NCBI GenBank assembly: GCA_002104905.1
Contig: MCFE01000168.1
Location: 1 to 64,000 of the forward strand
Origin: Basidiobolus meristosporus CBS 931.73
Lineage: Eukaryota > Basidiobolomycota > Basidiobolomycetes > Basidiobolales > Basidiobolaceae
DNA: 64,000 nucleotides
Reading direction: 5' to 3'
In this document: in pieces, positions 9,029-64,000 of the stretch
Layout of the letters: each line of letters opens with the position of its first letter
Numbering within the stretch: the first letter of the stretch is position 1
The notes under the pieces: model-generated
Seen by the model: only the letters and a program-made list of their open reading frames with translations
Told to the model about the DNA's origin: nothing
Databases searched by the model: none
Position numbers and translations under genes: made by a program

Positions 9029-9679
9029 CTAATTGTGCCAGATAAAGCTCACCCCATTTCCTGGTTTGAAGGTGGCATATTTCTTGATGTAAGGCCCTCC
9101 ATTGTAGTTGTAGTTACTTGTGTACACATTTCCATTGGCCTCAATCCTTTCAACAACAGCGACGTGTCCGGGACTGCCAGTTCCTTGAACTCCAGGCTGT
9201 ATTACTATAATACTAGGCTGCTTTGGTGTACCTGATACTGACCAACCAGGGGTGCTTTGTGCTTTGCTGGCCCAGACGCGAGCATCACCCCACCATTCAA
9301 TATGATGGCCAGTAAGCTGTGCATAGCGGGCATCAGCCCAGTCAGTACATTGACCATTTTTGAAGCGGAACTCCAGAGGCCCATTGGGTTGGGTGGTATA
9401 GCCGTTGTCGTTATCTGAGCTGTCGTTTCCATTCCCACCATAGCTATTATTTTGTTTAGAGTTTCGGTTCCCCTTTCTTGAGTTCTTGTTGTAGCTTGGT
9501 TTGTAGTTCTGGTTGGAATTCTGTGGATTGTAGCCCCAGGAATTCTTATAGGAATAGTACCGTGGCGCCAACTTGGGTTCCTCTTGTTGGATCTGACTCC
9601 CAGCGTCAGATATGCTGACCGGCAAGGCCCGAACCAATGCAACAGCGATCAAAAAGTATAGAACAGCGAATTTGTACAT
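9029..9679 (-). CDS. Secreted CHAP-domain protein 1 (predicted cell-wall hydrolase)
   Basis: This is a single-exon gene for 216 residues. A signal peptide covers about residues 1-19 (MYKFAVLYFLIAVALVRALP). Residues 35-100 form an Asn/Ser/Tyr/Gly-rich low-complexity linker. A CHAP domain fills 102-216, with catalytic Cys111 in NGQCTDWADARYAQL and His172 in SPGHVAVVERI. The SNYNYNGGPY strand probably carries the polar third residue. CHAP domains are papain-like amidases or endopeptidases that cut bacterial peptidoglycan. They are abundant in bacteria and phages but scarce in eukaryotes, so horizontal origin is likely. The absence of introns agrees with that. A palindromic TATA element (CTTATATAAG, 9735-9744) lies about 56 bp upstream. 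A paralogue lies at 12814-13536. Confidence 0.88.
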   Translation of the reverse strand: MYKFAVLYFLIAVALVRALPVSISDAGSQIQQEEPKLAPRYYSYKNSWGYNPQNSNQNYKPSYNKNSRKGNRNSKQNNSYGGNGNDSSDNDNGYTTQPNGPLEFRFKNGQCTDWADARYAQLTGHHIEWWGDARVWASKAQSTPGWSVSGTPKQPSIIVIQPGVQGTGSPGHVAVVERIEANGNVYTSNYNYNGGPYIKKYATFKPGNGVSFIWHN

Positions 9680-46016: not shown

Positions 46017-46418
46017 CTAGTAGCCAGAGTCGTTATCATCGGTTTCGTCACTGTTTGCATACGCCGATTTGGCAGGAGCATATTTGTCGAGTGTCAAGAG
46101 TTTGTCGTCGATGTCGTCAGAAAGATCGTTAACATCCGAGTCATATGAATATTTCTTGGAGCTGTTAATTACTCGTTTGAAGTCGTCATTTCCGGGATAC
46201 CAGTAGTCATCATGGTAGTCGTATCCATCATGTAAATCATTATAGGATCTACTGTTACCGTAAGTGTTGCCATACCAATTGCTATCATGACCGGAATATG
46301 AGTTGCCATTGAAGTAGTCACCAGAGTCCTGCCCGTTCCAGGACTTTCGCCTTTGCAATGTGCGAGTGTTCTTGCCACGGTAGCCAGAATACATCTCGTA
46401 TCCATCCATATTTGATCC
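46017..46418 (-). other. Tyr/Asp/Ser-rich tail of giant protein A
   Basis: The C-terminal ~134 codons change abruptly from Gln/Leu coiled coil to low complexity with many YxG, SYN and DY pairs (for example DGYDYHDDYWYPGNDD). The end is acidic (DETDDNDSGY). The tail is the most distinctive part of the protein outside the repeats. Confidence 0.75.
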
Positions 46419-49400
46419 TACCAATATCTCTTTCTGGTTGAACACACCTTTAAGGTCTAGAATGGCCTTATCACATTGTATTATTGACTCTCTAATGGAT
46501 GCAAGCTCTTTTGCGAATCTTCGCGAGTCAGTAGCACCTAGTAGCTCCAGTCGTCTAACGGATTCGTTCAGGCTAGGAATCACGTTCAATAGGAACGCCA
46601 CCTTTGTACGTTGCTCTTCATTTAGCGAGAGTAGTTTGGCTGTACCCTCTGCTTGGATTTCGGCAAGTCGGACCATGATCTGGTCAAGGTGTACCACGCG
46701 CTGTCTCAAGTCCTTGAAATCATTGGAGTGATTGGGGAAGATCAGATCAGGTCTGGTGACGATCTTTTCCAAGACTTTAGTGATTTGATTTAGCCTGGAC
46801 TTGATTTCCCTGTTCTCCCTGGACTGCTGGCGTGAAGCCAGTTCAAATCGGTTGATGAGTGAATTGGCGTCGGTTCCGGCAATTCGCTGCAGTGCAAATC
46901 CAATTTGATCCAGACGATCATCCATGTGCTTGAAGCCTTGATCATTTTGCTTAGAAAGTTCGGTAAATCCTCTTTCGATTAACGAAGTCTGCTCAGTGCT
47001 TAAGCGTCTCGTCAGTTGAGCCAGGTCATTGATGAACCCAGAGACACGCGAGATTGCACCAACAATCTTTTCGTTACTAAGTGTTTGGCGTTTTATATGG
47101 GTCAGGATGATGTCTTGCTCCTGAACGAGATGTGTCATTAAGCTACCCAGTTGGTTGATGCGTTGTTCAAAGTGGGTGATGATTTCTTGGTCATACTGCT
47201 TCGTCTCCACTCGCAACTGGTTGATCTCTCTGTGGAGCAAGGTTTGGTGTTGGCTGATGATATTGGTGACTGCTTCCTTCAGTTGTCCCAAGCGACCATT
47301 CATCTCAGAGAATTCGGCGTGATCGTGTTGCTTAGTGTAGACAAGCAGTTGCTGTTGCTGGGACACGAGCTTTGCAATAACTCCGTTTAAGTTTTCAAGC
47401 GCACCACCCATTTTGTTGATGGCCATGGACTGCTTTTCGACTATACCTGCCAGGCGCATTACGGCATGTTGTTGGTTGATAAGCTGTTTTAGCGCATTCC
47501 CGAACAAGTTCAGCTTTTGATCCAGCTTGGCGAATTGTTCGCGCTGCTCATTTCGACTCAACGTGAACAACTTTCTCTGTTCGTTTAGCAAAAATTCAAC
47601 CACCTCTTCAATTCTCAAAACCTTCGAGCCCAACGCTGCGATCTCTTGACTGTGCTTATTGGAGTTCTGGGTTTCCACTGTCAAGAGTTGGTTTTGTTGG
47701 CGTGTGAGCTGACTCACTAATCTTGCAATTTCCGAGAGTTTGACATTCATATCTTTGGAGAGGACATGTTGCTGTTGATTCAAGGAGCCTAGGCCTTCAC
47801 TTGTGGACTTGAATAGTAACGCATGCTGCTCGATCAATCTGTTGGTTGCGTCGCTAAGATGTGCCAATCTGGCCTTAACCTGGTTCATATCTTGAGGTAA
47901 TCCCAGCAATGTAGAAACCTTTGCATCGATGTTTCGAGTTTCCTTAACCAAAAATTGGACCGCATCATCCAAGTGAATCAGGTTGTTATTCAACTTTTCG
48001 ACACCGCTGAATGTTGCTTTTGTGATTTCTGTATTTTCTTTCTCGATGGCAATAAGGCTTCTTTGCTCCTCAAACAGGCGATCCACCACTTGAGCTAGTC
48101 GTGTTAGCTTCTCGGTAAGGAATCGGGTCGAATCAACGATTTTCTCATCTAGACGGTTTCCTTGTTTTACCAACAGCTCGCTAAATGCTTGCTGTTTTTG
48201 TACAACAAACTGGATACCTTTCTCCAAATCGACCAGGCGGGACAATACTGCATCGATTTGCGCACGAGAGTAGCCGGATTTTTCAAGTTTCTGTAGAATA
48301 GCACCCAAGAGGGAGCGTTGCTGGCTTATCAGAGAGTCAACACTCTTACGAAGATGCTCAACTCTAGTGTCAACGCCGTGAATAGCACCAGATTGCTGAC
48401 GTAAAATTGCAAGTAGCTCCTCACGATTTAGGAGGTTGTCTTGTTTTTGGGCAATATATTTTGCGATGTCATAGAGGTCTGCAGAGCGTTGAGAGATCAG
48501 GTTCAGTCTTTCCAAAATCTGCTTACTGGGGAACTCTTGATGCCCATGGCCCAGAATCTCCTTTTGAATTTCAAATAGTCTTCCGATTCCAGAGTTCATG
48601 ATATCGAATTGTCTATTCAACGACATAATCTGCCCCAGTAACGCTTTCGGAGCCTTTGTCACTACAGTTTCTGACAGTAAAGTGGTCTGCTTCGAAATAA
48701 GTTGACGGACATTACGACTAAACACGTTGAAACCATCGATAATTTGCTTGCTGATGTCGGTGCCAACGCCATACACTTTTTCCACCATTTGTGTAATAGC
48801 GTCCTGTTGGCGGAGCAATACATCAAGTCTTTCATTCACGCCAGACAAATTATGCTTGATGGGTCCCAAATCCCTTAGTCTCTCGGCGATTACTTTCAGA
48901 ACTTGCTCGTCGCGCAGAATATTCTTTTGCTGCTCGAAAATGGCGCGCACCAATCCATGTAAAGCCTGCAGCTGCTGGTTTAGGCCATTGACACTCTTCC
49001 CAAAGTTGACATTTAGCTGCCCTTGGCTTTGGAGAATCATATTTTGCTCTTTTTGTATACGCTTCATATCATCTCCTAAACCAGAAACGCGACCGCCAAC
49101 CGCTCGGATTGCTTCATAGAGGTTTCTGGCCACGGCATTCAATAGTTCCGGTCGTACAAGGTCTTTCTGCTGCTCTATCAATACTTGTAGCATCTTGTGG
49201 AGATCGCCCAATGTTCCAAAAATCTTTCTGTCATCAAGATTGTTTTCCCGTACAAATCTCTGGAACTCTTTGGTGGTGACCAAAGTTCGCTGATTTTCCA
49301 AGATATGCCCAACCAGCTCGCCCATCTGTGATAATCGACCATCAACCCTTTGGAATTCGCCGTAGAATTTCTCAAGGATTGGCCCGACCTTCTCGTTATG

Positions 49401-52400
49401 TAGGATGGCTTGTTGAAGCTCCAAAATATGTCGAACAGATCCGCTTAGTTGATTGAATCTCTCGGATATGATTTGGACATTCTTGGCCAAATCTCCGGTG
49501 ATCTCGTTGTTTTTACTCTGACTATTGAGGAGGACTGCTTGTAGTTTTCTTATTTCTCTAACAGCCTCGGTCAAACCTCGAACTTGTCCGTTCAGAACCT
49601 CGATGTCTTGGACGACGCGTTTGGGGAATTGATTGACCAGTTGAGAATTGGCGAGTAGCTGTTGTTGCTTGAAAAGTTGGTCCACCACACTAGTAAGGTA
49701 CCTGATGTTACCTCCGATTTTTTCTAAGTTTGCGGCTTCGCCTTGATGAATTCCATAGCCTTGTTCCAGCAACTTTTGCTGCTGGTTGATCAACAGGGAG
49801 ATTTCCTTGCGAACTGTGTTGATGTCTAATCCCAGACCTCTTATCTGCTTTGACTGATTACTCAGCAAAGCTACTACCCGATCATCATGGATCAACCTTG
49901 TCTGGACACTTGCGATCTCTTGAAGTGCATTACCAAACTTGCCAATACGTTCGTTAAGAATATTCAACATTTGGCGAACTGATGAGTATTCCTTGTCCTG
50001 TTTCTCAGCAATCGCACGTTGTTGTTGGCTAAGGTCTCCAACATCACCAGTCAATCGAATGATTTTTCCTGAAAGGTCACGAACTATATCAGCCAAGGCA
50101 CGAGGTAGCGAGCCAATTATCTCCGGAAGATTGAGCGACTGTTGCCAATGCAATACACTTGCAACCACGTTTTGGAGCTGCTTAACCCGGTTCAGGATTT
50201 CGCTTAGACCTTTTCTATCGACATCTTCCAAGGTTAGCAATCTCTCAAGTAGTCTAGATTGCTTGGAAAGGAATTCGGTGGTGCGAGCGGCAAAGTTCGC
50301 TAAACGGCCATTGATGTTCTGAATATAACTTAGCTGTTGATCGAGTGCGGCCTTGACTTCTTTGTTTTGGGAAATGATAATATTCTGCTCTTCCCGAATT
50401 TGCCTGACCTCCTTTAGAAGTTCAACAATTCCATGGGATACATCACTGACGCCTTCCCGAATTACGGTGGTTTCCCGTTTTTCAGCTGAAGTCAATTTGA
50501 GCAGTGATTCCTGGCGATTGACCAATACAGAAATGGCTGGCTCGAACTTCTCCAGGCGAGCATTGATTCTATGCACTTGTGAGAGGATTTCTTTGGGAAT
50601 TATTTTGTAAATATCAGAGTTCAACACAATTTGTTGAATATTTACTATTCCTTCAGACAGCTCTTTCAGTTCCGCTAGTCTCTTGATGACATCAGTGTCT
50701 CTAGCTTGAGATCCTTCATTCCCATTCTGAGTCTCACGCAGCAAAGTGTTCTGAATCTCTACAATGCGAACGATGCCATCTCTGAATCGTGCAAGTTGTT
50801 GCTTGATCAATTGAATGTCGCCAGTTTGCACTTTCAAGATCTCCATCACTTCTTCCTTGTGAAGCAGAGCATTCTGTTCCTCCGCAATGCGCTTGACCCA
50901 TTCGGCTACTTGGGCAAATTGACTACGTATTTGGGCCAATTGGCGTTCAACTTGCTTGTAATTTCCTCCTTCGCTTAGAACCTTGAGGATTAGAGATTGT
51001 CCGTCTCGTACATTTCGAATAGTAGTTCCAAGTTGAACCATACGATCGTTTAGATTGGCAATGATCTTGAAAATTTCTTTCCCAACTCTTGAGGCGATTT
51101 CTGGACCTGCAAGGCTCTTCTGTGAATCAACCAAGTGCCTTACAACATCACGCAGCGATCCGAGTTCTTGCGCAATTGCCCGATCACGTTTAGTATCCTC
51201 TGCAGAAACTTCGCCAAGCTGTTTTATGATCAATCCTTGTTCATTGACCATTCTGTTGAATTGATTTCCCAGTTCATTGAGCTGCACCCCAAGGCTGGCA
51301 ATGCGTTGATTCTGTACCTTGAGTAAAGCAGTAATCTCTCTGGTATTCAACACCTTTGTTTGTTCCGCAAAGGTTCGTCGAATAAATTCAAACAGCCCTA
51401 GTAAACGCTTGTTCAATTCTGAAACCTCCTCCTCCAAGTGATGACCTGTTGCATTGCTATCCTGGGATAATTGGAAGAGTGCGTTTTGCTTTGTTGTAAT
51501 CTGGTTGATGATTTCGATCAGCTGGGCATATTTATCATTGAGCATTTCTATCTTGCCAAGAGTAGACTCGGATAATTTGCCAGTTAGTGATGCTGAAACC
51601 AATTTTCTCTGCTGTTCAATTAGCTGAACAATCAAGTTCTGGAGTCCGCTTAGCCCTTGAAGAATACTTCTAGTTTCCTTAGAATCTACCCCGTTTTCTC
51701 CGGTAACTTTTTTCAATAGATCAAATTGAATACGCACAAGGGTCTCTATCTTCTTGTCGAGTCTTCGCACCTGCTCATTCAAAAGGTCCGTTTTCCCCAA
51801 GTTCTGTTTGAGAAGTTCAGTGTTGTGGAGTAGTATTGCTTTTTGCTCAGCATGAAGCTCCTTGACATAAGACCCAAGTTCACCTAGCCTTGCCCCTAGT
51901 TTATCGATACTGTTGATAATTAACCCAGTATCCTCCTTGGATTGAGCAAATAGTTTCTCCTGTAGCTCTTGGACCTGATTAACATCCTTATTCAAGCCGA
52001 TTAGTTTGTTATTGAGTCGCACTATTTCAGCCGGAATCCTTTTTCCCAACGCTTCGTTGAAGTTTCGTGAGAGGATATTAGTCTGTTGACTTGTCAGCTC
52101 GTAAATTGTTTTGCGTAATTCCGCTAGGTTTTGAGCGATTTCTCCTAATTTGCCGTAGTCTATTCTCCCGTCTTTGGAAAATACAGCAATGAGTTTCTGT
52201 TGCTGTCCAACCAAGGATTCTACTTTACGGTCTAATACGTGCAGCCCAGCTTTGATCTCTTCAAGATTCTTGGCCTGTTCAGGTGTAAGGCCGCCGCGTT
52301 TGAGGATCTCCAGTTGGAACTGTGCAACTTTCTCAACCATCTGGGACAACCCCGAAAGACCCTTCTTTACCTCATCTATATCTTTGACAATATACTTAGT

Positions 52401-55400
52401 ATCGCCATCCTGCTGCTGAATGAGATGGTCTTGCTTTTTGGAGATTTGGACAACCGCTTGGCCCAATTGCTTAAGTTGCAAGTGCAAGGCCTCAATATCT
52501 TTCAAAAGTTCCTTCGGTGCCTTGTCCCATCCGCTTTGAAGCAGGATATTCTGCTGTACTAGCACCTTCCGGATACTCTCACTAATCTTGGTTAGCACAT
52601 CTCTCAGAATGTTCAACTCTCCGCTATCCCCTTTCCCCTGGCCCAAGAGGTACTTCTGCTGGTTGAGGAGTTGGACGATGTGATTGCTGATTTCCGCTAA
52701 TTCCAAAGATAGGTTCTTGATATCGCCACCTTGTTTCTTGAAAAGAGCAGCGATCTCTTCACGAGTTACCAAGTGTCTTTGGGTTCCAATTACCTGGGTA
52801 ACCATATCGTAAAGTTTGTTCATTTGGTCGCCAAATACTCGAAGTTCTTTACCATGATTCCTTATCATGGCACTATTCTCTTGTGTAAAGCCTAGTAGTT
52901 TGTTTTGTTGATCCAGTAAGCCTCGGACATATTTTGTTAGTTGGTTCATTCCGTCATCAAGTTTCGAGAGCTCTGCTACTATCTCCTTAGAACCAACTCC
53001 CTTATTTTCGGAAATATGGTAAACAAGCTTGCGTTGTTCATTTATCATAAGCTCAATTGACTTTCTTAATTCCGATAGTTTAGCTCCCGAAATGCCAAAG
53101 AGTTTTTCGACATCGCTGCCATATTTCTCCAAAATCTCTCTTTGCTGAGCTGTCAACTGGTTTATATCCTTTCCAAGCGTGTTCAAGCGCTGGTTGACAA
53201 TATTGAAATTTCTGTCCTGGGATCGTGAGAGCTGCACCGTTAGTTTCAATAAAGAGTCCTGCTTTTTTGAAACTTCCAGAGTTGCTGTGGCCAGCCTTTC
53301 TATCTTGACGTCAATTTGTTTTGTATCACTAGCAATGTTTTTTGTAGTCTCGCCGATCTGAGAAAGTGCGGACTTCACTTCCATAAGAACAGTTTGGGTG
53401 GCTTCAGTTAATAGGCCAATTCTCTTGCTCATCTCTCGGATGCCTTCGATCCCCTTAATAGAGGTGCCACTTTGAAGGTAACGAAGGATTTCTTTTTGGC
53501 TATTAAACATTTTCTCGATGTCTCCATAGATTTTTGATAATCTTTGGGCGGTACCCTTCGCGTATTCCAAGGTTTCTTTGTCGGTGATGGAATTCTCTTT
53601 CTCAAGAGATGTCAATTCTTGGAGAAGCTTTCTCAAATTACCCATTTGACGGTTTATCCTTTTGATATCGGCTGCTTCTTCTTGAATTATTGGAGCAAGC
53701 TCTACCAGTTTGAGGGTGTAGCTCTGTTGCGTATTCAAGATCCTCACAATCTCATCGAGTTTTTCAAGCCTATTGAGAAATTTCCCCAGAGCCATATTTG
53801 TATTGCCCTTGTTTGAAACGCTTAAGAGAGCAATTTGATCCGAAGCTAGTCTCTTGACAAGAGCAGTTAGTTGATCTACTCTTTCTGCCAGCTTCTCTTC
53901 ATTCTCAAGAACTTTCTGTGAAGTACTCTCTTTGGCAACAACTTCAAGTAGTTTCCCTTGGCCGGAATAAAGCGAACTGATTGCTTGTTGGATATTGCTG
54001 AGTCGTTCGCCAAGTTTCAATAAATCGCCTTGGGAGGAGTTTTCAGCATTTTTGAGCGATTTTTCCTGGAGCTCTATCATTTGTGTCGTTTTTTCTCTCA
54101 GAACGCTCAGCTGCTCGTTTAGTTTCTTGATATCTCCTGAGTAGCTCGGCCCGTTGTAATTTCCATTAGACAAACGTCTCTGTTCCTTGAGCACAAGGGC
54201 TATGACATCGCTCAGCTGTGAAAGTTTGCCGTTAATCTTTTTGATATCTTGAGATTGGCCATTTTCGTTCATCAGAATCTGTTGCTGGTCAACTGCAACT
54301 TTCTCTATGATCTGGAGAATCTTCGAGGTCAGCTCCTCGAGTCTATCGACATCTCTATCATACTTCCCTTCATCATTTTTTGGATAGGTACGTCGTTCCT
54401 TGGAGATGCTTTGGATTGATTTACCTAGTCTATCAAGTATACCCCGGAGACTGCTGAATTCCTCACTTTGCTCCTTACTGAGTCGTGAAAAGATAGATTC
54501 CTGTTGCTGGAGTACGAGATCAACTCTTTCACGAAGCTTGGCGAGTCTACTATCCAGACCACCTAGGTTCCATTTCGCAGAGCCCGCGTCAATATTCACT
54601 GGCTTGCCATCAAGCAAATATTTCTGTTGCTTGGCAATCAGTTCTACAACTTCCACCAGCTGCTTCACTCGTGAGTTGAGACCGTTGATAGACTCAGTGA
54701 CACTTTCATCTGTAGAATGTTGATCCTTTCCGGAGCCATATCGCTTTATCAACTCTCTTTGCTCCTTAATCAGTCGGTCCACAATGTTGCTAATATCGGC
54801 GAGTCGGTAATTGATGCTTCCAATATCCTTTGTCAGTTCCTTCGGGATGGTAGCTGTTCGATATTGTTTAAGTAGAGTCTGCTGAGACTCAACCAGCGTC
54901 TGGATTATGGCTCGAAGCCTATCTAATGAGCTCGCTACTTTCCCATTCCCATCTTTAGGATAGTCGTCTCCTGCCTTCATATCCTTGTAATTGAACACCT
55001 TGGCTTGCTCCTCAATCAGGTAGTTGATTCTCTTTCCAAGATCATCCAATTTACCATCCATTTTCGTAATTAAAGTATATTGTTGCTGAAGCCAGGAATT
55101 GTGTTCTGAAAGTGGCGACAAAAGTTTGTCAAACTTGATCAGCTTTTCATTGAATGCTGACCATTTTTCTTCTCCATATGGCGCTTTCGACTTGATCAAT
55201 GCTGCTTGTTCTTTAAACAGACTCTGGACCACGCTCTTAAGAGTCATAATCGCTCGTGTCATGCCCTTGACATCTCGAAGGAATTCAACTGGTACACCAC
55301 TAGAGTGGTGACCTTCTAAAATCTTTTGTTGGCCATCTACAAGACCTTCACATTTGTCTTCAATACGATGGAGTAGATCAACGATCTCGGTTGACCCCGA

Positions 55401-57023
55401 ACTTTCGTTTTTCTCGCTGGAAGTCTCCTTGACATACCCGACTTGTTGTGATACGATCTTGTTGATCGATTCTCTGAGCAACTTGAATTCAGAAAAGATG
55501 GCCTGAATGTTCTTGCCATCCAAGTAGTGATTTCCACCTGAACCTTGCTCACTGGTTAGGGTTGTCTCTCTCTGGACCAAGGAGGCCAGTGAAGAGTTGA
55601 CCTCATTCAGCCGGAGACCAAGACCATTAATATCCTGGAAAATACGCTTGTTGACTTCAGTTTTGGCGGAACCATCATTGCGGATCCCTTCAGCGACAGT
55701 ATTCAGAGTTTCAACCAGTTGACCAATTCTTTCAGAAAGAGCCTTGAAGTTGATGCTTTGATTTTCTCTAACCTCCGATATAAGCTGGATCTCTTTCCTT
55801 TCAGCCGCACGAGATTGCTGGATACTGCCCTGTAGGAGTTGCTTAACCTGATCAAGTTCTTCTTTCAGGCGAACGATACTCGTGTTGTCTTCTTTGGATA
55901 GTTTTGAGACCTTACTAACAACATCGCTAACCTCCCTTGTAATAAGGTTAAGTCCTGATTGTAGCCCACTAAGGTTGTGGCGTATCTCCTTAAGCTCATG
56001 GTCATGTGCAGTATCGCTTTTCTCCGAATTAGTGTACCCGGAATCAATTTTATATGATCCTTCTTTACCAAGTTGGCCGACTGCACGAAGCAGCTCGGTC
56101 AGTCTAGTGTTGATCTCGGCAACATCTTTGGATGATTTTACGATAGCAATACGTTGTTCCTGAGTATTTTGCTGCTGAACGTCCGAAAGCTCAGAAACAT
56201 CACGTCTAAGCTGTTGTAGCTTGTCGTTTAATGCGCCCACTTCGTTGAAGGTCTTGGTGCTAATCGAATATGTCTTTGAAGTCTGCTCTTCAATGACTTT
56301 GTTTTGTTCAGAGATCCCACCCACCGTGCGAATAAGCTCCTCCACCTTTCCAGATAATACCGATAATTCCTTATTCGATCCGCCACCAAAGTTATAACGC
56401 TCTTTAGTGATCCCCTTGTGTCCTACGGCCGCTTCCTGAATTAAACGATCTAATTTTTCTTCAAGCCTGCTGAGGTCCCAACCAGAAGATTGGTCCTGCT
56501 TATGGAATGACAATCCCTTGCCAGCATTTCGTTCATCGATCTCCACTTCATTATCATATTCGAAATCTTCCACCAAGCTGCCGATGCCATAACCACCCTC
56601 ATACCAATCCTGAATTCCTCCTAGGAATCTCAATTGATTATCGGGAAACAGAATAATTTGCTCTTCTGGAACCTCCGTGAGATACACCTCCTCTATCACG
56701 TTGATTGGTTGTGGCGCAATAAGTCTGATGGAGTCACTATTTTGGAACACTCTGGTAACTCCATGCGCTCCTTTTTCTAGAGACTCTTCAGCATCTTCCT
56801 CAGATTCCTCCTGTTCTTTCACCGAAAGAATACTACTGTTGCCGTCATTCTTCTTTCTCAGGTATACTGAAGAGTCGTCACCACCGCCAGTATGCTTTGA
56901 TAACTCTTCACCCAGTATAGTATTGCTCAGAGCGAGTTGGCTGAATAGAAACAAGGCTGTACGCCAGTTCTTACTGGCGTTAGAGTGACGGAATTGGCTA
57001 CGTAAAATAGTGTTGGATAGCAT
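46017..57023 (-). CDS. Giant secreted coiled-coil repeat protein A, 3,668 aa
   Basis: This is one uninterrupted 11-kb frame on the minus strand. A basic N-terminus leads to a hydrophobic leader at about residues 22-37 (TALFLFSQLALSNTIL), with likely cleavage near Gly38. An acidic, non-repetitive region follows to about residue 170 and holds LFPDNQLR (125-132). From about 180 to about 3,500 the protein consists of degenerate heptad-like units of 35-40 residues built on LxxLxxxVxxLxxxQxxLL. I estimate some 80 units. I found only two Cys in the whole chain. The last ~140 residues are Tyr/Asp/Ser/Gly/Asn-rich. No catalytic domain or known family is recognised. A fibrous extracellular or lumenal role is inferred. 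A paralogue faces it at 58078. Confidence 0.9.
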   Translation of the reverse strand: MLSNTILRSQFRHSNASKNWRTALFLFSQLALSNTILGEELSKHTGGGDDSSVYLRKKNDGNSSILSVKEQEESEEDAEESLEKGAHGVTRVFQNSDSIRLIAPQPINVIEEVYLTEVPEEQIILFPDNQLRFLGGIQDWYEGGYGIGSLVEDFEYDNEVEIDERNAGKGLSFHKQDQSSGWDLSRLEEKLDRLIQEAAVGHKGITKERYNFGGGSNKELSVLSGKVEELIRTVGGISEQNKVIEEQTSKTYSISTKTFNEVGALNDKLQQLRRDVSELSDVQQQNTQEQRIAIVKSSKDVAEINTRLTELLRAVGQLGKEGSYKIDSGYTNSEKSDTAHDHELKEIRHNLSGLQSGLNLITREVSDVVSKVSKLSKEDNTSIVRLKEELDQVKQLLQGSIQQSRAAERKEIQLISEVRENQSINFKALSERIGQLVETLNTVAEGIRNDGSAKTEVNKRIFQDINGLGLRLNEVNSSLASLVQRETTLTSEQGSGGNHYLDGKNIQAIFSEFKLLRESINKIVSQQVGYVKETSSEKNESSGSTEIVDLLHRIEDKCEGLVDGQQKILEGHHSSGVPVEFLRDVKGMTRAIMTLKSVVQSLFKEQAALIKSKAPYGEEKWSAFNEKLIKFDKLLSPLSEHNSWLQQQYTLITKMDGKLDDLGKRINYLIEEQAKVFNYKDMKAGDDYPKDGNGKVASSLDRLRAIIQTLVESQQTLLKQYRTATIPKELTKDIGSINYRLADISNIVDRLIKEQRELIKRYGSGKDQHSTDESVTESINGLNSRVKQLVEVVELIAKQQKYLLDGKPVNIDAGSAKWNLGGLDSRLAKLRERVDLVLQQQESIFSRLSKEQSEEFSSLRGILDRLGKSIQSISKERRTYPKNDEGKYDRDVDRLEELTSKILQIIEKVAVDQQQILMNENGQSQDIKKINGKLSQLSDVIALVLKEQRRLSNGNYNGPSYSGDIKKLNEQLSVLREKTTQMIELQEKSLKNAENSSQGDLLKLGERLSNIQQAISSLYSGQGKLLEVVAKESTSQKVLENEEKLAERVDQLTALVKRLASDQIALLSVSNKGNTNMALGKFLNRLEKLDEIVRILNTQQSYTLKLVELAPIIQEEAADIKRINRQMGNLRKLLQELTSLEKENSITDKETLEYAKGTAQRLSKIYGDIEKMFNSQKEILRYLQSGTSIKGIEGIREMSKRIGLLTEATQTVLMEVKSALSQIGETTKNIASDTKQIDVKIERLATATLEVSKKQDSLLKLTVQLSRSQDRNFNIVNQRLNTLGKDINQLTAQQREILEKYGSDVEKLFGISGAKLSELRKSIELMINEQRKLVYHISENKGVGSKEIVAELSKLDDGMNQLTKYVRGLLDQQNKLLGFTQENSAMIRNHGKELRVFGDQMNKLYDMVTQVIGTQRHLVTREEIAALFKKQGGDIKNLSLELAEISNHIVQLLNQQKYLLGQGKGDSGELNILRDVLTKISESIRKVLVQQNILLQSGWDKAPKELLKDIEALHLQLKQLGQAVVQISKKQDHLIQQQDGDTKYIVKDIDEVKKGLSGLSQMVEKVAQFQLEILKRGGLTPEQAKNLEEIKAGLHVLDRKVESLVGQQQKLIAVFSKDGRIDYGKLGEIAQNLAELRKTIYELTSQQTNILSRNFNEALGKRIPAEIVRLNNKLIGLNKDVNQVQELQEKLFAQSKEDTGLIINSIDKLGARLGELGSYVKELHAEQKAILLHNTELLKQNLGKTDLLNEQVRRLDKKIETLVRIQFDLLKKVTGENGVDSKETRSILQGLSGLQNLIVQLIEQQRKLVSASLTGKLSESTLGKIEMLNDKYAQLIEIINQITTKQNALFQLSQDSNATGHHLEEEVSELNKRLLGLFEFIRRTFAEQTKVLNTREITALLKVQNQRIASLGVQLNELGNQFNRMVNEQGLIIKQLGEVSAEDTKRDRAIAQELGSLRDVVRHLVDSQKSLAGPEIASRVGKEIFKIIANLNDRMVQLGTTIRNVRDGQSLILKVLSEGGNYKQVERQLAQIRSQFAQVAEWVKRIAEEQNALLHKEEVMEILKVQTGDIQLIKQQLARFRDGIVRIVEIQNTLLRETQNGNEGSQARDTDVIKRLAELKELSEGIVNIQQIVLNSDIYKIIPKEILSQVHRINARLEKFEPAISVLVNRQESLLKLTSAEKRETTVIREGVSDVSHGIVELLKEVRQIREEQNIIISQNKEVKAALDQQLSYIQNINGRLANFAARTTEFLSKQSRLLERLLTLEDVDRKGLSEILNRVKQLQNVVASVLHWQQSLNLPEIIGSLPRALADIVRDLSGKIIRLTGDVGDLSQQQRAIAEKQDKEYSSVRQMLNILNERIGKFGNALQEIASVQTRLIHDDRVVALLSNQSKQIRGLGLDINTVRKEISLLINQQQKLLEQGYGIHQGEAANLEKIGGNIRYLTSVVDQLFKQQQLLANSQLVNQFPKRVVQDIEVLNGQVRGLTEAVREIRKLQAVLLNSQSKNNEITGDLAKNVQIISERFNQLSGSVRHILELQQAILHNEKVGPILEKFYGEFQRVDGRLSQMGELVGHILENQRTLVTTKEFQRFVRENNLDDRKIFGTLGDLHKMLQVLIEQQKDLVRPELLNAVARNLYEAIRAVGGRVSGLGDDMKRIQKEQNMILQSQGQLNVNFGKSVNGLNQQLQALHGLVRAIFEQQKNILRDEQVLKVIAERLRDLGPIKHNLSGVNERLDVLLRQQDAITQMVEKVYGVGTDISKQIIDGFNVFSRNVRQLISKQTTLLSETVVTKAPKALLGQIMSLNRQFDIMNSGIGRLFEIQKEILGHGHQEFPSKQILERLNLISQRSADLYDIAKYIAQKQDNLLNREELLAILRQQSGAIHGVDTRVEHLRKSVDSLISQQRSLLGAILQKLEKSGYSRAQIDAVLSRLVDLEKGIQFVVQKQQAFSELLVKQGNRLDEKIVDSTRFLTEKLTRLAQVVDRLFEEQRSLIAIEKENTEITKATFSGVEKLNNNLIHLDDAVQFLVKETRNIDAKVSTLLGLPQDMNQVKARLAHLSDATNRLIEQHALLFKSTSEGLGSLNQQQHVLSKDMNVKLSEIARLVSQLTRQQNQLLTVETQNSNKHSQEIAALGSKVLRIEEVVEFLLNEQRKLFTLSRNEQREQFAKLDQKLNLFGNALKQLINQQHAVMRLAGIVEKQSMAINKMGGALENLNGVIAKLVSQQQQLLVYTKQHDHAEFSEMNGRLGQLKEAVTNIISQHQTLLHREINQLRVETKQYDQEIITHFEQRINQLGSLMTHLVQEQDIILTHIKRQTLSNEKIVGAISRVSGFINDLAQLTRRLSTEQTSLIERGFTELSKQNDQGFKHMDDRLDQIGFALQRIAGTDANSLINRFELASRQQSRENREIKSRLNQITKVLEKIVTRPDLIFPNHSNDFKDLRQRVVHLDQIMVRLAEIQAEGTAKLLSLNEEQRTKVAFLLNVIPSLNESVRRLELLGATDSRRFAKELASIRESIIQCDKAILDLKGVFNQKEILVGSNMDGYEMYSGYRGKNTRTLQRRKSWNGQDSGDYFNGNSYSGHDSNWYGNTYGNSRSYNDLHDGYDYHDDYWYPGNDDFKRVINSSKKYSYDSDVNDLSDDIDDKLLTLDKYAPAKSAYANSDETDDNDSGY
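46420..56480 (-). repeat. Coiled-coil repeat array of giant protein A
   Basis: Consecutive glutamine landmarks measured in the middle of the array (QQKYLL, QQNILL, KQDHLI, FQLEIL, QQQKLI) are 35, 40, 39 and 38 residues apart. Larger units are marked by TREE/NREE-like openings followed by LLxxQxxxI. Examples lie at about 52748, 51332, 50846, 49870 and 48412. A second marker is P(K/R)E(I/L)-type openings. DNA identity between units is low, so the array is old. Confidence 0.7.
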
Positions 57024-58077
57024 TACAACGAGCGAGGTTACAAGAATGTGTCAAGAAAAACCGAAATTACTTTCAAGGTCTATTAAAAAAAGGAATGCTA
57101 CGATAATTAAGAATAGTCGGCAAAAGCAAAGGACTCGGAAGTTAAGTTCAAAATTGGTGGGTCCTAGAAGTAAGGTTTTCTCTATACCACCTTAGTAGAA
57201 AAGTATGTTTTAATATAACCCCAAGAGTGACGAAGAAAATTTCTACGCTTGTATGATAGCTAGCTGTGTCTCCCGAGCGAGGCTATTTATACCACATGTA
57301 CAACATTTATTCCCTAAGGATATAGCAATCCTCACAAGGAACATGAAACTTGACAGCCAGGATTTCCTCTAACGTGACGAAGATCCACGGTGTTGAATTC
57401 AACTGTTTTTGAAGTACCATCCGGCCTCGATTGTTTCAGATAATTCGGCGAGAACATATGATGTATTAGCATAGATCTTAGAGCCCACCGATTTCAATGA
57501 ATTCCAAACCAAGTGGCCTGTGGATGCTGTGATATCGATTGGTAATGCGGTGGTCTTGTTGCCTGGTTATTGATGTTAAATTGGACGCACAACCACACTA
57601 TTGTCGGGATGAAATGATCCTAAAGTAAACGATATCTTCATCTTTTGCTAATGTGTGTAAAGCAGCCATCTTCCTTGTTTCAAGGACGAAATGTTTAGAC
57701 GTATGTAACCTTATGTACAAAGGGATCAGAATTGTCTTACACATGCACTTGCGGTTTCTGGATTGTTTTCTAGTAGATATCCATAAGCATTCAACCAGAA
57801 TTAAAGCTGGCACATTGATTGCAGGTGCATATATATATGCCATTCATCGTTGCTGCTATTTTGGTTTCTCTTTAAAAACACTCAGATGGTCCACTGTTCA
57901 TCTATCCTGCAGTGAGATGCTGAATAAACACTGTTACTCTATCAACATGAGCAACTGCATTTTATAAATGCGAGTAGTCATGTGTTGATCCATTAAACCT
58001 TTAATCGCGATATCTATTTGTGTATCCATTTCTATCTTCTCAGGATATTCCACACTGTTTACGTTCGGCTAGTAATT
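57024..58077. promoter_or_regulatory. Divergent promoter of the two giant genes
   Basis: About 1.05 kb lies between the two start codons. TATAAATAG stands on the minus strand at 57283-57291, 260 bp before giant A. The palindromic GCATATATATATGC at 57827-57840 stands 238 bp before giant B. The frames inside (57010-57195, 57653-57967) are not supported as genes. The near-equal TATA-to-ATG distances suggest similarly long 5' UTRs, perhaps with an intron. Confidence 0.5.
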
Positions 58078-61000
58078 ATGACCCATCAAAATGGGATGAA
58101 TACTTTCAAGAGACTGCGTTGCAATTTTTACTTACTATCGCAGTTAGCTGTGGTACAATCCATTCAAGGCTCCATATACCATCACCCGACTAACAATTCA
58201 TTCGTGTCTAATGAATTCGCGCTTCATACAAACTCGAGTAATAGAGCTAACTTGTTAAGCAATATACACCTACGAAGTCAAACACGCTCTACAGATCCCC
58301 TTGACAATTGGAATACTGTCAATTTAGGGCTGGACCCATCGGGTATCGAGCTCTCACCCTATTTAGAGTCTGGGGACTATCCACTATCAGAATATGTTCA
58401 GGCGTTCTCTTGGAAAAATCCAGGCGAGCAGGTCCTACTCTTTCCGGACGGTCAACTGAGATATGTGAAATCAGCTCTACATCCCTACTCTTCTGTTGAG
58501 TCGGATAAGACGAACGTTAGGACTAGCTTGCCAAAAGATCACGGAGCGAACAAAGATGATGGGATTGCCACAAAAGAAGAATCTCTAATGTTGGATGTGA
58601 AATTGGATCAACTCATCCTGGCTTTGTCACCAGCTTTACTACACGAAAGACACCATTCCGGCATTCATTTTCAAGGGTTGCATGAAGATATAACCCAACT
58701 GAAACAAAACGTAGAGAAGCTGGAGAATGCAATCGGGATAACATCGACATCAAATCAATCGAATCAAGCCCATACTCAACTTTATGAGAAACTGAATGGC
58801 CGTAACCATAACTTCGTCGGCGCTCAAAATAATACCGATAGTCTTGAGCAGCTTCGAGATGCGTTCAGCGACATGATAATGGAGCAACAAATTTTACCTA
58901 GGGGGATAGGCGACGTTACGCCAACTGAGCTTAAGAAGATAATCGAAGACTTAACAAGTCTGTTCTCTCGTACTCACAGAATATTAGTAGAGATTGGCAA
59001 TGAAAAAGATATATTCCTTCGCAAAGACTACTCAGAAATGAAAAATTTTCAAGGAATTAACAAGCTGTCGAAACTGAAGGATATATTGGACCTGATAATG
59101 AAACTACGGGACCGCATCTTGGGGGAAGATTTTCATCAAAAACTCAGGAATTACTCGGGAGATATTAGTAAGCTTGGGGAGCAATTTATTAAATTGAAAT
59201 CTACCATGGATCTATTGGTATTGCAGCAACAATGGACATCAAAAGGAGTGAGGGCCAGCCAGCTGACTAATGATCAAGCTACTAAGCAATTAGATGAATT
59301 GTATATGGTGGCTGATCGAATAATGCAGGATCAAGAGAAGCTATTTTCCATCAAAACCAGTGGCAAGGAAGATTTAGTACTGGAAAAAGCTATTCATAAT
59401 TCTCTTAAACAGTTTGCAAAACTGACCATCGTGGTTGAGAGATTAATTGAACCGAGTGGACTTGTAAAACCCCACGGAGATCCCGGAAGTGCTAAGGTTG
59501 TTGAGAGTAGATTAACAATCATTACTCCGAAGCTTGATCTACTGAGAGATGCCATGATACAGATGAATAAGCAGCAAAATATCCTCTTGGATATCTCTAG
59601 ATATCACCAACGGATGGAATCGCAATCCCAAGATATTCGAAGACTTGAAGAACAATTGGATAGGATCCAATCAACTATGCTTGCCTTGGAGAAGAACGGA
59701 CCTCAACACCAACGAGCAAAGTTTGTTAAGGCTCATCTAGAGCAATTTAATAATCTCTTTCAAAAGGCACAACGGCTGGTGAGAGGACAATATCAGTTAC
59801 TATCACTTGTGAAATCCAATAGGTCTGAAAAACGCTTGAATAATGTCGAAACCATGAATCTGAAGCTCTATCTGCTGAACAAAATTATCGAGCAAGTCAT
59901 CAGCAATGAAAGGCCTTTGGTAAATTCAGTTAACTCTAAAGGCAGGAACATGGCGAGCAGGATTTTACAGGTCGATATCAAGATTGGCAAGCTTAATACA
60001 GCAGCTATAGAAATATCTAGACGTCAAGAGCAACTATCGGAATCTCTCAACGTCTCTTGGGGAGAACAAGATAACAACTTCAAGCTTATGAGCTATATAC
60101 TGAATAATCTGGGTTCAGGCATCAATAGATTAGTCACACAACAGCAACGACTTCTCAACGATAAGGGGTATACAAATGAACCAGCAATTAACGGAAAATT
60201 GTTGGAACTGGAGAAATCTGTGAATCGTTTGGTTGATGCACAAAGCAAATTGCTCCTTATCAAGCCAGCCAAACTCTCAGGAGAATTGATGCAAGAAATT
60301 GATTCAATGGGCGAACGTGTCAAAGAGCTCGCCAAACTCATTGAAGATTTGAATTCAAAACAAGAACAAGTTTGGAAGATCTTTAGGAATGGGAATGCAG
60401 TAAATGATTTTGAGAAGGCCCTCGCAAAGGACTTGCATAATCAATTTTTATCGCTTTCTTTTCTTGTTGATAAGTTGACTCAGAAGCAAATAGCATTTAC
60501 CACTCGAGAGGAGGTGACAAGACTTCTGAGTGTCCAAGATAAAGGAATCCAGCAACTATCGTTCGATCTTGGTCAAATTTGCAATAAGGTGGGCCAAATT
60601 TTGCGGCAACAAGAAATTCTAAATGCCAAGAATAATAGATCAAGTTCCTTGAAATTATTGTTGGATATTAGTAAGAATATCTGGCAGCTTCTGAAACAAC
60701 AAAATCTACTAGCCCGGTCCGCACATGAGAAGGATGTAGACAAGCACGCATCAAACTTGCGAAAGAAATTGGACAACCTCAAGATAATTATCAGTAAAGT
60801 ACTTTCGAGCCAAGAAAGTTTCATCCAGCCAGCATTCGCCGGCAGCGAAACTTCTTCTGTTACAAGTACTAGGGTAGGGGAGCTCGAATTGGAATTGACT
60901 GAACTAAACAATGGGCTTGATATTGCTTCCTTTGTGCAGATAGAAATTCTCAAGCAGATTGGTGTTCTCAACGATCAGCAAAACGTCAAAAGCATAAACT

Positions 61001-64000
61001 CAAAAACCTCCACTTTAGGGAAGCGAGTTGATCAGCTAGTCAAAGAGCAAAAGGCACTCATCGATAAAGAGGGCCGCAATGATAAGGTGGCTAAAGACTT
61101 CGAGGAAATTCGGAAGGTTATTTCCAAAATAGTTGAACAACAAGCTACAACTTTAAACGCTACCTGGAGGAGTATATTTGAGGAAAGAATACCATTCGAT
61201 GTATCCGTGGTCAACACCAGGATTGTAAAGCTAGGTGACATTGTAGATCAACTCCTAGTCAAGCAACGTACTCTCTTTCCCCACCATGCAAACAGTGGCT
61301 TGCACAAGAACTCAGTCAAAGGGTTGAGAAGTCTAACAATCTCAATCAGCCAGGTTGGCAAATATGCTAAGAAATTATTATCTGAGCAAACACAGATATA
61401 CCAGAATCATGAAGTCTTGAGACAATCCCTCACCAATACCAGTAAGATCGACAGCCAGCTAATCGGATTAACCAAGAAAATCGACACAGTTGTACGCATC
61501 CAAGCTGCTCTATTACGACGTGCTCGAAAATATAACTATAGGAATACTGAAAGGCTTGGTGACGATCCTATTATCCAAAAACTCTGTGGCTTACAAAGTT
61601 CTGTCAACCAAATTATTTTACGTCAACAGAAATTGACCAGGGCCAAATTAGACGGACGCATTCCAGATGAAACTCTCAAAGAATTTGGGAAACTTGACAC
61701 GCATTTCAAGGAGCTGATAGGCTCAGTGAACCAATTTTCCACCAAGCAGTGGACAGTTATTTTGAAGGACTCGAAAAGCGAATTAACTGAAGACTTGGTG
61801 AGGAATATTTACCGCCTTTCTGAAGAACTCAAAGATATTTCGAACTATGCAACGGAAACCATGAAAATTCAGTCGAGGATTTTTGGCAGTAAGGAAGTCA
61901 CCAGAATACTCCAGCTCCAATCCAGTCAAGTAAAGGACTCTGGTTTAAAGTTAGGCCAGCTAAAGTCAAAATTTCAGGATCTATTAAAGCAACAGGCAAT
62001 GGTGATCAAGGAGTTAGGATACAGCCCAGGTCTAAAGAAAAATTCAAACGATCGCTTGCAAATTATTTATGAAAAGCTTCATGGACTACGTGGCGATTTT
62101 GAAAAGGTTATTGGATATCAAAGAAGTTTTATTAACCTCAAGATTAGATACAACCTGCCGAAGGAGATATCTTTTATAGTTGAAAAATTGAATGAACGTT
62201 TTACGGCTCTAGAAAAACAAATCGTTGACTTATCTAGGGGTCAGGATAACTTCTTGAGACTTGAAAGGAAAGATGAGCAACATCTATACACCATTGAAAA
62301 TTTCGCCTCGAACACAACCAAGGAGATTGGATCCTTGAAGGAATTGATAAACCAAATTATCCTCGAGCAATCAAAACTCTTCAAGCGTAGTGATGTTACG
62401 GCCCTTCTACAGCAACACACAGCAAGTATCGAGAAGATGGATGATCGACTACAGGATCTCAGCGCTCGAGTGATTCAACTTGTCAGTAATCAAAAGGAAC
62501 TGCTGCTTGCTGGTGAAACAGACAGATCTAAAAATTCTGCAAACAAAGACCTAATTAATAGATTTACCGAATTAAGAACAACAGTTCAAACACTTGTCCA
62601 CAAGCAGAATGAGTTATCTAAGCCACAGATTTTCAACCAAATCTCAGGGGATATAGCGCATGAAATTAAGGAGCTAACTGTGCAACTATCCAAACTCAAT
62701 GAAAAGGTCACCGCATTGAACGATAAGCAGCAAGCCATTCTTCTTCAAGTAGATAGCGCTGGTAAACACAATATCAATCCTCACAGACACAACGTTCAAT
62801 ATTTGAATGAACAACTAATTGATCTGGGAAAATCAATCCATGACATCTCCAGTCATCAAGCAAGAATTGCAAACGACCACCGAGTATTGGATGCGCTAAA
62901 GAAGCAAAATACGCAAATACTCTCTTTAGAAACAGGAATGATCAATCTCCGGGGAGAATTGAGGACTTTGATCTATCGTCAACAAACTCTGCTCAATGAA
63001 ACACACAACACTATCCAGCAGAATAGTGGTGAGATTTTAGAAATCCTGGCGAAACTCCAGAACTTGGACGGTAAAACAAATGGCCTATTCGAGCAGCAAA
63101 AAGCACTGATCAATAGAGATGTTTATGCAACTATTCCTAAAGAACTTACATTCCAGATTGATCAGATCGGTACTCGAATCGAGGATCTTCAGCATTTCGT
63201 GACCAAAGTTTCCAGAGACCAGGCAACATATCTTGAGTACAAGACAAGAAACAAGAATGGTGATTCGAAGAAATTACTTCGACTCAATCAACAATTTGAT
63301 CGATTGTTAACCATCATATCTCGGATTCTTGACGACCAAAATAAGATTACTACCAACGAGCATGTAGTCAAGATACTGAAAGAACACTCCAAATCAATCC
63401 AAAAAATTGATATCAGGCTCACGGGTATAAGCACTCTAATTCGAAAAATATTAGATAACCAACTCCGATTCATTCAATCACACAACGATCATAATCATAC
63501 TAGCCGTACTGCTCAGAATTTACCGCCTATAGCTACAGCCTTGTTGAGGATTCAAGAGGAGGTTGAATATCTCATTGAACAGCAGAGGAAGCTTAATCTT
63601 CCAGCAGTTGTGAATGTTCTACCTACAAATCTTCTGGACAAAGTGGTTCAAATCAACTCAGCTTTGGACGGCTGGAACGGGTATATTCAGCGTTTGTTTG
63701 AAAAGCAAGCCGAGTTGATCAAGTCATCAGAGAGCAGACAAGCCCAGGATTATAGGCATGCAATTGACAAGATCAACGAGAATTTGAGCGATTTTGGCCA
63801 CGCAATGCATACTCTGACTGTCCAACAGACGGAAATCTTCAAGAATGAGGAAATTCTAAAGATCGTGGCTGATGAACTCGGGGATCTGAAAGCAGTCAGA
63901 GCAACCATGAGAAAATTCGGCAGTCAGATCCAGAGTGTGATCAACCAACAAAAACACATCCTGGCTAGTATCTCTAATTTATCGAATCGGGATTCAGTTG
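58078..64000 (+). CDS. Giant secreted coiled-coil repeat protein B (truncated by window end)
   Basis: The frame from ATG 58078 has no stop up to the last base, giving at least 1,974 codons of a 3'-incomplete gene. Residues 16-30 form a hydrophobic leader (NFYLLSQLAVVQSIQG) that resembles that of giant A. LFPDGQLR occurs at residues 121-128, against 125-132 in A. Repeats of the same LxxLxxxQxxLL type follow from about residue 160. Both superunit markers are present: TTREEVTRLLSVQDKGIQ, and openings such as LPKEISFIVEKLNERF and IPKELTFQIDQIGTRI. It is a paralogue of A in head-to-head orientation. Repeats are more Lys/Asn-rich than in A. Function unknown; a partner or heteromer of A is possible. 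Confidence 0.85.
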   Translation, partial: MTHQNGMNTFKRLRCNFYLLSQLAVVQSIQGSIYHHPTNNSFVSNEFALHTNSSNRANLLSNIHLRSQTRSTDPLDNWNTVNLGLDPSGIELSPYLESGDYPLSEYVQAFSWKNPGEQVLLFPDGQLRYVKSALHPYSSVESDKTNVRTSLPKDHGANKDDGIATKEESLMLDVKLDQLILALSPALLHERHHSGIHFQGLHEDITQLKQNVEKLENAIGITSTSNQSNQAHTQLYEKLNGRNHNFVGAQNNTDSLEQLRDAFSDMIMEQQILPRGIGDVTPTELKKIIEDLTSLFSRTHRILVEIGNEKDIFLRKDYSEMKNFQGINKLSKLKDILDLIMKLRDRILGEDFHQKLRNYSGDISKLGEQFIKLKSTMDLLVLQQQWTSKGVRASQLTNDQATKQLDELYMVADRIMQDQEKLFSIKTSGKEDLVLEKAIHNSLKQFAKLTIVVERLIEPSGLVKPHGDPGSAKVVESRLTIITPKLDLLRDAMIQMNKQQNILLDISRYHQRMESQSQDIRRLEEQLDRIQSTMLALEKNGPQHQRAKFVKAHLEQFNNLFQKAQRLVRGQYQLLSLVKSNRSEKRLNNVETMNLKLYLLNKIIEQVISNERPLVNSVNSKGRNMASRILQVDIKIGKLNTAAIEISRRQEQLSESLNVSWGEQDNNFKLMSYILNNLGSGINRLVTQQQRLLNDKGYTNEPAINGKLLELEKSVNRLVDAQSKLLLIKPAKLSGELMQEIDSMGERVKELAKLIEDLNSKQEQVWKIFRNGNAVNDFEKALAKDLHNQFLSLSFLVDKLTQKQIAFTTREEVTRLLSVQDKGIQQLSFDLGQICNKVGQILRQQEILNAKNNRSSSLKLLLDISKNIWQLLKQQNLLARSAHEKDVDKHASNLRKKLDNLKIIISKVLSSQESFIQPAFAGSETSSVTSTRVGELELELTELNNGLDIASFVQIEILKQIGVLNDQQNVKSINSKTSTLGKRVDQLVKEQKALIDKEGRNDKVAKDFEEIRKVISKIVEQQATTLNATWRSIFEERIPFDVSVVNTRIVKLGDIVDQLLVKQRTLFPHHANSGLHKNSVKGLRSLTISISQVGKYAKKLLSEQTQIYQNHEVLRQSLTNTSKIDSQLIGLTKKIDTVVRIQAALLRRARKYNYRNTERLGDDPIIQKLCGLQSSVNQIILRQQKLTRAKLDGRIPDETLKEFGKLDTHFKELIGSVNQFSTKQWTVILKDSKSELTEDLVRNIYRLSEELKDISNYATETMKIQSRIFGSKEVTRILQLQSSQVKDSGLKLGQLKSKFQDLLKQQAMVIKELGYSPGLKKNSNDRLQIIYEKLHGLRGDFEKVIGYQRSFINLKIRYNLPKEISFIVEKLNERFTALEKQIVDLSRGQDNFLRLERKDEQHLYTIENFASNTTKEIGSLKELINQIILEQSKLFKRSDVTALLQQHTASIEKMDDRLQDLSARVIQLVSNQKELLLAGETDRSKNSANKDLINRFTELRTTVQTLVHKQNELSKPQIFNQISGDIAHEIKELTVQLSKLNEKVTALNDKQQAILLQVDSAGKHNINPHRHNVQYLNEQLIDLGKSIHDISSHQARIANDHRVLDALKKQNTQILSLETGMINLRGELRTLIYRQQTLLNETHNTIQQNSGEILEILAKLQNLDGKTNGLFEQQKALINRDVYATIPKELTFQIDQIGTRIEDLQHFVTKVSRDQATYLEYKTRNKNGDSKKLLRLNQQFDRLLTIISRILDDQNKITTNEHVVKILKEHSKSIQKIDIRLTGISTLIRKILDNQLRFIQSHNDHNHTSRTAQNLPPIATALLRIQEEVEYLIEQQRKLNLPAVVNVLPTNLLDKVVQINSALDGWNGYIQRLFEKQAELIKSSESRQAQDYRHAIDKINENLSDFGHAMHTLTVQQTEIFKNEEILKIVADELGDLKAVRATMRKFGSQIQSVINQQKHILASISNLSNRDSV

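Follow-up and report, generated by a model that had tools for sequence, protein, structure and literature searches.

Two giant genes diverge from a common spacer

The window analyzed here, 64,000 nucleotides long, covers bases 1-64000 of contig C389 (145,671 bp) of Basidiobolus meristosporus CBS 931.73, a strain of a gut-dwelling fungus whose assembled genome counts 89.0 Mb in 1311 contigs. It contains two giant genes, here termed A1 and B1, that face away from each other across a spacer of about 1 kb, as a preliminary description of this DNA had proposed:

46017-57023, minus strand: gene A1, a single-exon, intron-free open frame whose translation is a giant repeat protein of 3668 residues
57024-58077, no strand: divergent spacer, 1054 bp from ATG to ATG, candidate bidirectional promoter
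58078-64000, plus strand: 5' part of gene B1, which continues to contig base 66462 and encodes 2794 residues in total from the ATG at 58078

The A1 translation matches the public protein K493DRAFT_351315 (P0003) at 99% over its length; the public model has 3645 residues and omits 23 residues of a frame that is open in the genome, probably through a false intron. The B1 frame opens at a TTG (58018), its earliest ATGs lying at 58078 and 58096, the latter an alternative start. Extension of the contig past base 64000, which the preliminary description had advised, placed the 3' end of an intact frame of 8.4 kb outside the window. A protein search with the B1 part gave no B. meristosporus record and listed one protein, from B. 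ranarum, so B1 seems to have been missed or split in the public annotation.

Whole-genome searches with the second A protein (P0006) and with the B1 part returned at least 11 and at least 15 matches, respectively, all inside A1, B1 and a second pair, A2 and B2. The latter genes lie on contig C624, again head-to-head, with a spacer of 1519 bp:

C624:132699-140942, plus strand: gene A2
C624:120428-131179, minus strand: gene B2, 3583 residues

Four related proteins of B. ranarum complete the set of eight and are termed rA1 (P0004), rA2 (P0005), rB1 (P0009) and rB2 (P0007).

A collinear array grouped in fours

Most of A1 is occupied by a repeat array, of which two parts are referred to below:

46641-56411, minus strand: A1 array of 81 heptad units in sets of four, from about residue 205 to 3461, with a modal spacing of 41/39
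50247-50738, minus strand: A1 units 48-51, the sole super-repeat absent from all four B proteins, seen as a gap of 164 alignment columns
50862-51347, minus strand: A1 units 43-46 (residues 1893-2054), an example super-repeat whose low-confidence model matches a single-chain four-helix bundle

The array is beyond chance: a position-specific scan found 81 units in A1, 58 in B1 and 77 in B2, compared with means of 2.5, 1.5 and 1.5 and maxima of 6, 5 and 4 in shuffled sequences (50 shuffles each). The long array common to both genes, noted in the preliminary description, is therefore real. Across 531 units of the eight proteins, core positions -3, 0, 4, 7, 11, 14 and 21 are hydrophobic in 78-99% of cases, and a core Gln occupies position 18 in 85% of the units of seven proteins. 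Successive units are mostly 41 or 39 residues apart. By autocorrelation, linker similarity peaks at lags of 4, 8, 12, 16 and 20 units in all four proteins tested (A1, rA1, B2 and A2), giving a super-repeat of four helices and about 162 residues that occurs about 20 times per long chain; nine consecutive super-repeats of A1 measure 152-164 residues.

A and B proteins, 25-31% identical, are collinear. Nearly all units of B2 (76 of 77) and rB1 (76 of 78) fall in A1 unit columns, register-matched A/B units are 30-33% identical versus 17-19% for other units, and in the comparison of A1 with B2, 39 of 76 units have their register-matched counterpart as best partner. The array was thus essentially complete before A and B diverged. 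A2 has 59 units and lacks units 1-22 of A1, a loss not common to B. ranarum, since rA2 retains them; in B1, units 1-14 are not seen, nor are 17, 18, 21, 23 and 32. Repeat proteins do not usually keep their register over some 80 units, as happens here across two species and both paralogues, which raises the question of what sets the length.

The repeats resemble a string of helical bundles

In Pfam and NCBIfam, no family reaches its cut-off for A1 or for the window part of B1, and no enzyme family is listed for either, in agreement with the earlier view that no recognized catalytic domain is present. Sub-threshold matches to known families were rejected: Cohesin_HEAT (14.5 bits), Cupin_NOL9 (13), KHA (13.4) and SMC_prok_B (TIGR02168; 35.6 bits against a cut-off of 567, covering only positions 673-924 of 1181 in the profile), and no SMC head appears in Pfam up to E 0.1. 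Single-sequence searches of the PDB gave nothing at E 0.01 for A1 or at E 0.1 for the B1 part. These sequence comparisons gave no homology to a cytoskeletal or tethering family; clear homology of that kind is what the preliminary description had named as refuting its proposal. Protein searches over 5.8 billion sequences (E ≤ 0.001) returned Basidiobolus only (4, 1 and 3 matches), with a word filter that limits their reach to distant homologues.

The preliminary description pictured both proteins as coiled coils. A long heptad array is indeed present, but its phase is not continuous: neither of the two most frequent spacings, 41 and 39, is a multiple of 7, and units at these spacings are separated by some 5-12 residues that are poor in hydrophobic side chains and contain many helix breakers. 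Each chain could still be a near-continuous helix, about half a micron long by our estimate if fully extended, that pairs in parallel into a fibre. The clean heptad stripe described above would suit such a rod, as would the conserved A/B register, which fits side-by-side pairing, and one helix of the first structure model runs over two units. Against it, a single 11-residue step can bridge a spacing of 39 and cannot bridge one of 41, and both models otherwise show about one helix per unit. Positions 15 and 22 widen the hydrophobic face in the manner of bundles, and the four-unit periodicity and the A/B difference of one super-repeat also tell against a rod. A continuous coiled coil was dropped as first choice on linker composition, spacing and super-repeat, and we regard it as doubtful, though the least so of the alternatives considered here.

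The super-repeat model, of low confidence like the other, matches a designed single-chain four-helix bundle. Together with the breaker-rich linkers, this match leads us to favour helices connected by loops and arranged in sets of four, an architecture closer to four-helix bundles on a string than to a single extended coiled-coil fibre. The models also show weak fold matches to talin (R11R12, R7R8 and R10), vinculin and catenin (Foldseek E 0.05 or worse).

A charge test was also tried and set aside. Under the stricter permutation, which is the one used (1000 per set), neighbours at sum 20 gave z -3.19 with a family-wise p of 0.055 in the pooled set, p was 0.12-0.80 in six smaller sets, and no set fell under p 0.11 at lags 2 and 3; a first null with shifted partners had given z -5.0 at sum 20. 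Sum 20 was lowest in rA1 and in three pooled sets, and not in A1, B2 or rB1 alone.

Terminal motifs, and leaders that suggest probable secretion

The array is flanked by a putative leader and by short conserved motifs:

46179-46205, minus strand: A1 C-terminal motif YWYPGNDDF, located by pattern search and alignment
56616-56669, minus strand: A1 conserved N-terminal motif PEEQIILFPDNQLRFLGG (residues 119-136), with invariant L125, F126, P127, D128, L131 and R132
56910-57023, minus strand: predicted A1 leader (residues 1-38), with a basic n-region, the hydrophobic core ALFLFSQLAL and a Gly before the likely cut
58078-58170, plus strand: predicted B1 leader from hydropathy, ending with NFYLLSQLAVVQSIQG
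58426-58473, plus strand: B1 N-terminal motif EQVLLFPDGQLRYVKS

The shared N-terminal motif of the preliminary description extends beyond A1 and B1, as LFPD[N/G][Q/K]LR is present in all five other proteins with a known N-terminus (A2, B2, rA1, rA2 and rB1; rB2 lacks its N-terminus, so leaders were compared in seven proteins). A genome search with the N-terminal region gave three matches at E ≤ 1, namely A1, A2 (E 0.013) and B1 (E 0.4); the search missed B2, which carries the motif all the same. The C-terminal motif GY/FWYPxNxxF occurs in A1-type and B2-type proteins, A1, A2 and B2 among them; in B1 the last part of the motif is missing. The preliminary description had noted neither this motif nor the second gene pair, the four-unit super-repeat or the 3' end of B1. 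Searched as a DNA pattern, [YF]WYPxNxxF is found in the genome at A1, A2, B2 and one more site, C524:13350-13376 (minus strand).

The hydrophobic core of the leader (FYLLSQLAVV in B1) is the top 10-residue hydropathy window of the whole protein in A1 (rank 1 of 3659), rA1, rA2, B2 and rB1, ranking second in B1 and fifth in A2. With 19-residue windows the ranks run 2 (A1), 3 (rA1), 13 (rA2), 1 (B2), 2 (rB1), 10 (B1) and 53 (A2), indicating that the core is short. A Gly follows it at the likely cut in 6 of the 7 known N-termini. Beyond the first 60 residues no later membrane-anchor segment stands out, the best 19-residue hydropathy mean being 1.46.

The Ser-Gln-Leu within the leader is kept in all seven known N-termini, which is unusual for a plain signal peptide.

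Composition was also examined. Cys is nearly absent, with 2 residues in A1, 1 in A2, 2 in rA1, 3 in rA2, 3 in B1, 0 in B2, 1 in rB2 and 1 in rB1. NxS/T sequons number 139 in the eight proteins, versus 184.0 ± 12.2 expected from permutation of the letters within unit positions; eight control patterns gave 0.95-1.22. The depletion is carried by the A-type proteins (observed/expected 16/22, 14/20, 16/27 and 10/17) and is also seen in B2 (21/27) and rB2 (8/15), but not in B1 (22/23) or its orthologue rB1 (32/33).

From the conserved leader, the near absence of Cys and the overall sequon depletion, the A and B proteins are likely secreted. Hydropathy and conservation support the putative leaders that the preliminary description had assigned to both genes; entry into the secretory path, which it had also proposed, is probable overall and less well borne out by the sequons of B1 and rB1. 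The competing possibility is an intracellular scaffold, tether or ruler, whether cytosolic, nuclear-envelope or organellar, whose N-terminal stretch stays uncleaved or serves as a mitochondrial presequence. The modest hydrophobicity of the leader, its invariant Ser-Gln-Leu, the undepleted sequons of B1 and rB1 and the distant fold resemblance to talin, vinculin and catenin would all be compatible with it, while the hydrophobic core followed by Gly, the scarcity of Cys, the overall depletion of sequons and the lack of a sequence match to any cytoskeletal or tethering family in Pfam, NCBIfam or the PDB speak against it. We consider such an intracellular role unlikely.

The pair was duplicated before the species diverged

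The giant genes lie within a mirrored duplicated segment (C389 41460-45849 and 68120-82882 versus C624:113131-147420). Its flanks, in mirrored order, include a frame read by eye as a PKA catalytic subunit (92% identity over 217 residues), an arrestin-domain gene (73% over 287 residues), a frame of 143 residues (96%) and others, and the giants between the copies are down to 40-49% identity. This arrangement hints that a large segment, or the whole genome, was duplicated; for B. ranarum, a passage of PMC3281927 had already suggested a duplication of genes or of the genome.

In B. ranarum, rA1 (K7432_000010) and rB1 (K7432_000011) carry consecutive tags, and both records give a contig of 92,976 bases, from which we infer that they are adjacent; rA2 and rB2 are on short contigs. 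A tree of the eight proteins joins A2 with rA2 (100/100), B1 with rB1 (99/96) and B2 with rB2 (98/98), the A1-rA1 branch being poorly supported; in an earlier seven-protein tree without rB1, the B branch was poorly supported. Even so, by this grouping the pair doubled before B. meristosporus and B. ranarum split.

The copies have since evolved at unequal rates. End branches measure 0.35 for A1, 0.72 for A2, 1.13 for B1 and 0.46 for B2, versus 0.17-0.23 in B. ranarum. In Tajima tests, A2 is faster than A1 (255 versus 158 unique changes, χ2 22.8) and than rA2 (120 versus 68, χ2 14.4), and B1 is faster than B2 (354 versus 196, χ2 45.4) and than rB1 (338 versus 155, χ2 67.9); for rA1/A1, rB2/B2, rA1/rA2 and rB1/rB2, χ2 does not exceed 1.0. 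B. meristosporus thus has slow, long chains (A1 and B2) and fast, short ones (A2 and B1). The acceleration and shortening of A2 and B1 may reflect decay or a second grade of product.

Whether A and B are functionally coupled has to be weighed against a simple history in which an inverted duplication made them neighbours and duplication of the whole segment made the second pair. A and B are indeed paralogues, the second pair does lie within a duplicated segment, and the two spacers are unlike. However, A and B have stayed adjacent at the two loci of B. meristosporus and, judging from the gene tags, in B. ranarum too, despite their low mutual identity, whereas some other neighbours were lost or moved: the frames at 66.5-68.1 kb, beside B1, have no match in the 50 kb of C624 compared. 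An absence of coupling seems improbable to us, and the matched paralogous pair of the preliminary description gains from the head-to-head order at two loci, the consecutive tags and the repeats in register.

A shared promoter element was sought and rejected, as the one 19-base match between the spacers (89%, E 0.15) lies at different distances in the two, points to different genes and is attributed to chance. Very high expression is not indicated by codon adaptation, which is 0.51-0.54 in the four giant genes versus 0.38-0.67 in 19 local frames that are not all proven genes; the reference consisted of histones (0.65) and an actin exon (0.80), whose own values are circular. RNA-seq exists for strain CBS 931.73, according to an excerpt of PMC7466969.

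Elsewhere in the window, a frame of 216 residues (9032-9679, minus strand) contains a CHAP domain (PF05257, E 3e-15). This family consists mostly of bacterial amidohydrolases. The frame could be among the bacterial genes that part of PMC7466969 reports as acquired by Basidiobolus.

Comparison with known systems

Among the matches listed in searches of the open-licence literature (Basidiobolus coiled-coil, adhesive conidia, fungal secreted coiled-coil), no description of the A and B proteins was found. Among the closest comparisons are the talin rod, vinculin and alpha-catenin, in which helix bundles with modules of about this size follow one another and which gave the weak fold matches listed above. 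All three are adaptor proteins of the cytosol and have no leader, and no talin, vinculin or catenin family appears in Pfam up to E 0.1, nor any such sequence in the PDB search. The coiled-coil silks of bees and ants and the proteins of mantis egg cases are secreted, all-alpha structural proteins that form paralogous sets, as A and B, which are predicted to be secreted, also do; they are small animal proteins with a single coiled-coil region.

At the gene level, collagen IV offers an analogue, and an analogue only, in its several gene pairs. COL4A1 and COL4A2 are head-to-head paralogues for structural chains, which are secreted and share a bidirectional promoter (excerpt of PMC4936713). Unlike them, A and B have no Gly-X-Y triple helix and no sequence relation to collagen, consist of all-alpha repeats in much larger chains, and have a promoter that is only a candidate.

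Giant bacterial adhesins such as Ebh of S. aureus, a protein of the same kind as Embp of Staphylococcus epidermidis, are built from F/FG modules that we take to be the FIVAR/GA families; up to E 0.1, Pfam lists no F/FG-type family for either A1 or the part of B1 inside the window. As described in PMC7587433, Embp resembles A and B in being giant, non-enzymatic and composed of tens of alpha-helical bundle repeats in an elongated chain, and it is a cell-surface protein, comparable to the predicted secretion of A and B. It differs in being bacterial, in its F/FG modules of triple-helix bundles and in being a single protein with no divergent pair. A and B can be grouped with giant extracellular repeat proteins, as putative members in which both the module and the pairing of the genes are out of the ordinary.

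Proposed role

We tentatively propose, at a little less than even confidence, that A1 and B1 are a co-regulated sister pair of secreted structural proteins, strings of four-helix bundles that act together in a wall, spore coat or adhesive. The two would be expressed together from the divergent promoter that they share and would enter the secretory pathway; for co-regulation, as for secretion and the bundle fold, the support is indirect. Each chain would be a non-enzymatic string, fixed in length, of helical modules, of which a long chain has about 20; a module would consist of four heptad helices, one 41/39-residue unit each, packed up-down-up-down into a four-helix bundle. The string is bounded by short conserved motifs: LFPDxQLR follows the leader, and GY/FWYPxNxxF lies close to the C-terminus of A1, A2 and B2. 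That A and B make up an extracellular material is suggested by chains that are fixed in length, collinear, twice paired and secreted-looking. Their mutual contact, site and mechanical role we infer: A and B, lying in the same register, would form a two-component extracellular scaffold or glue of the wall, spore coat or conidial adhesive, in which the bundles would serve as rigid spacers able to yield under force.

Elongate capilliconidia with a beak covered in adhesive material are described for the Basidiobolaceae in an excerpt of PMC13370150, which deals with a new genus in that family, and the reference list of PMC7913143 includes titles about Basidiobolus conidia with adhesive beaks. Among the matches listed in the open-licence literature, no protein is named for these conidia. 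The adhesive beak is a candidate site chosen by biology; a wall layer, the zygospore coat or gut adhesion would be equally possible.

A more specific version, which we regard as a long shot, would have A and B form in-register heteromers whose tandem four-helix bundles unfold in succession when loaded, so that this genus-specific material makes a tough, force-absorbing conidial adhesive or wall layer. In B. meristosporus, two grades of it would then be assembled across loci, one from the long, length-matched A1 (81 units) and B2 (77), the other from the short, fast-evolving A2 (59) and B1 (58).

If true, the pair would be the fungal equivalent, in a single genus so far, of giant bacterial helical-bundle adhesins and of collagen IV gene pairs, with a different module. 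It would also offer defined units of ~162 residues for work on protein mechanics, and supply Basidiobolus conidia with candidates for the proteins of their adhesive beaks.

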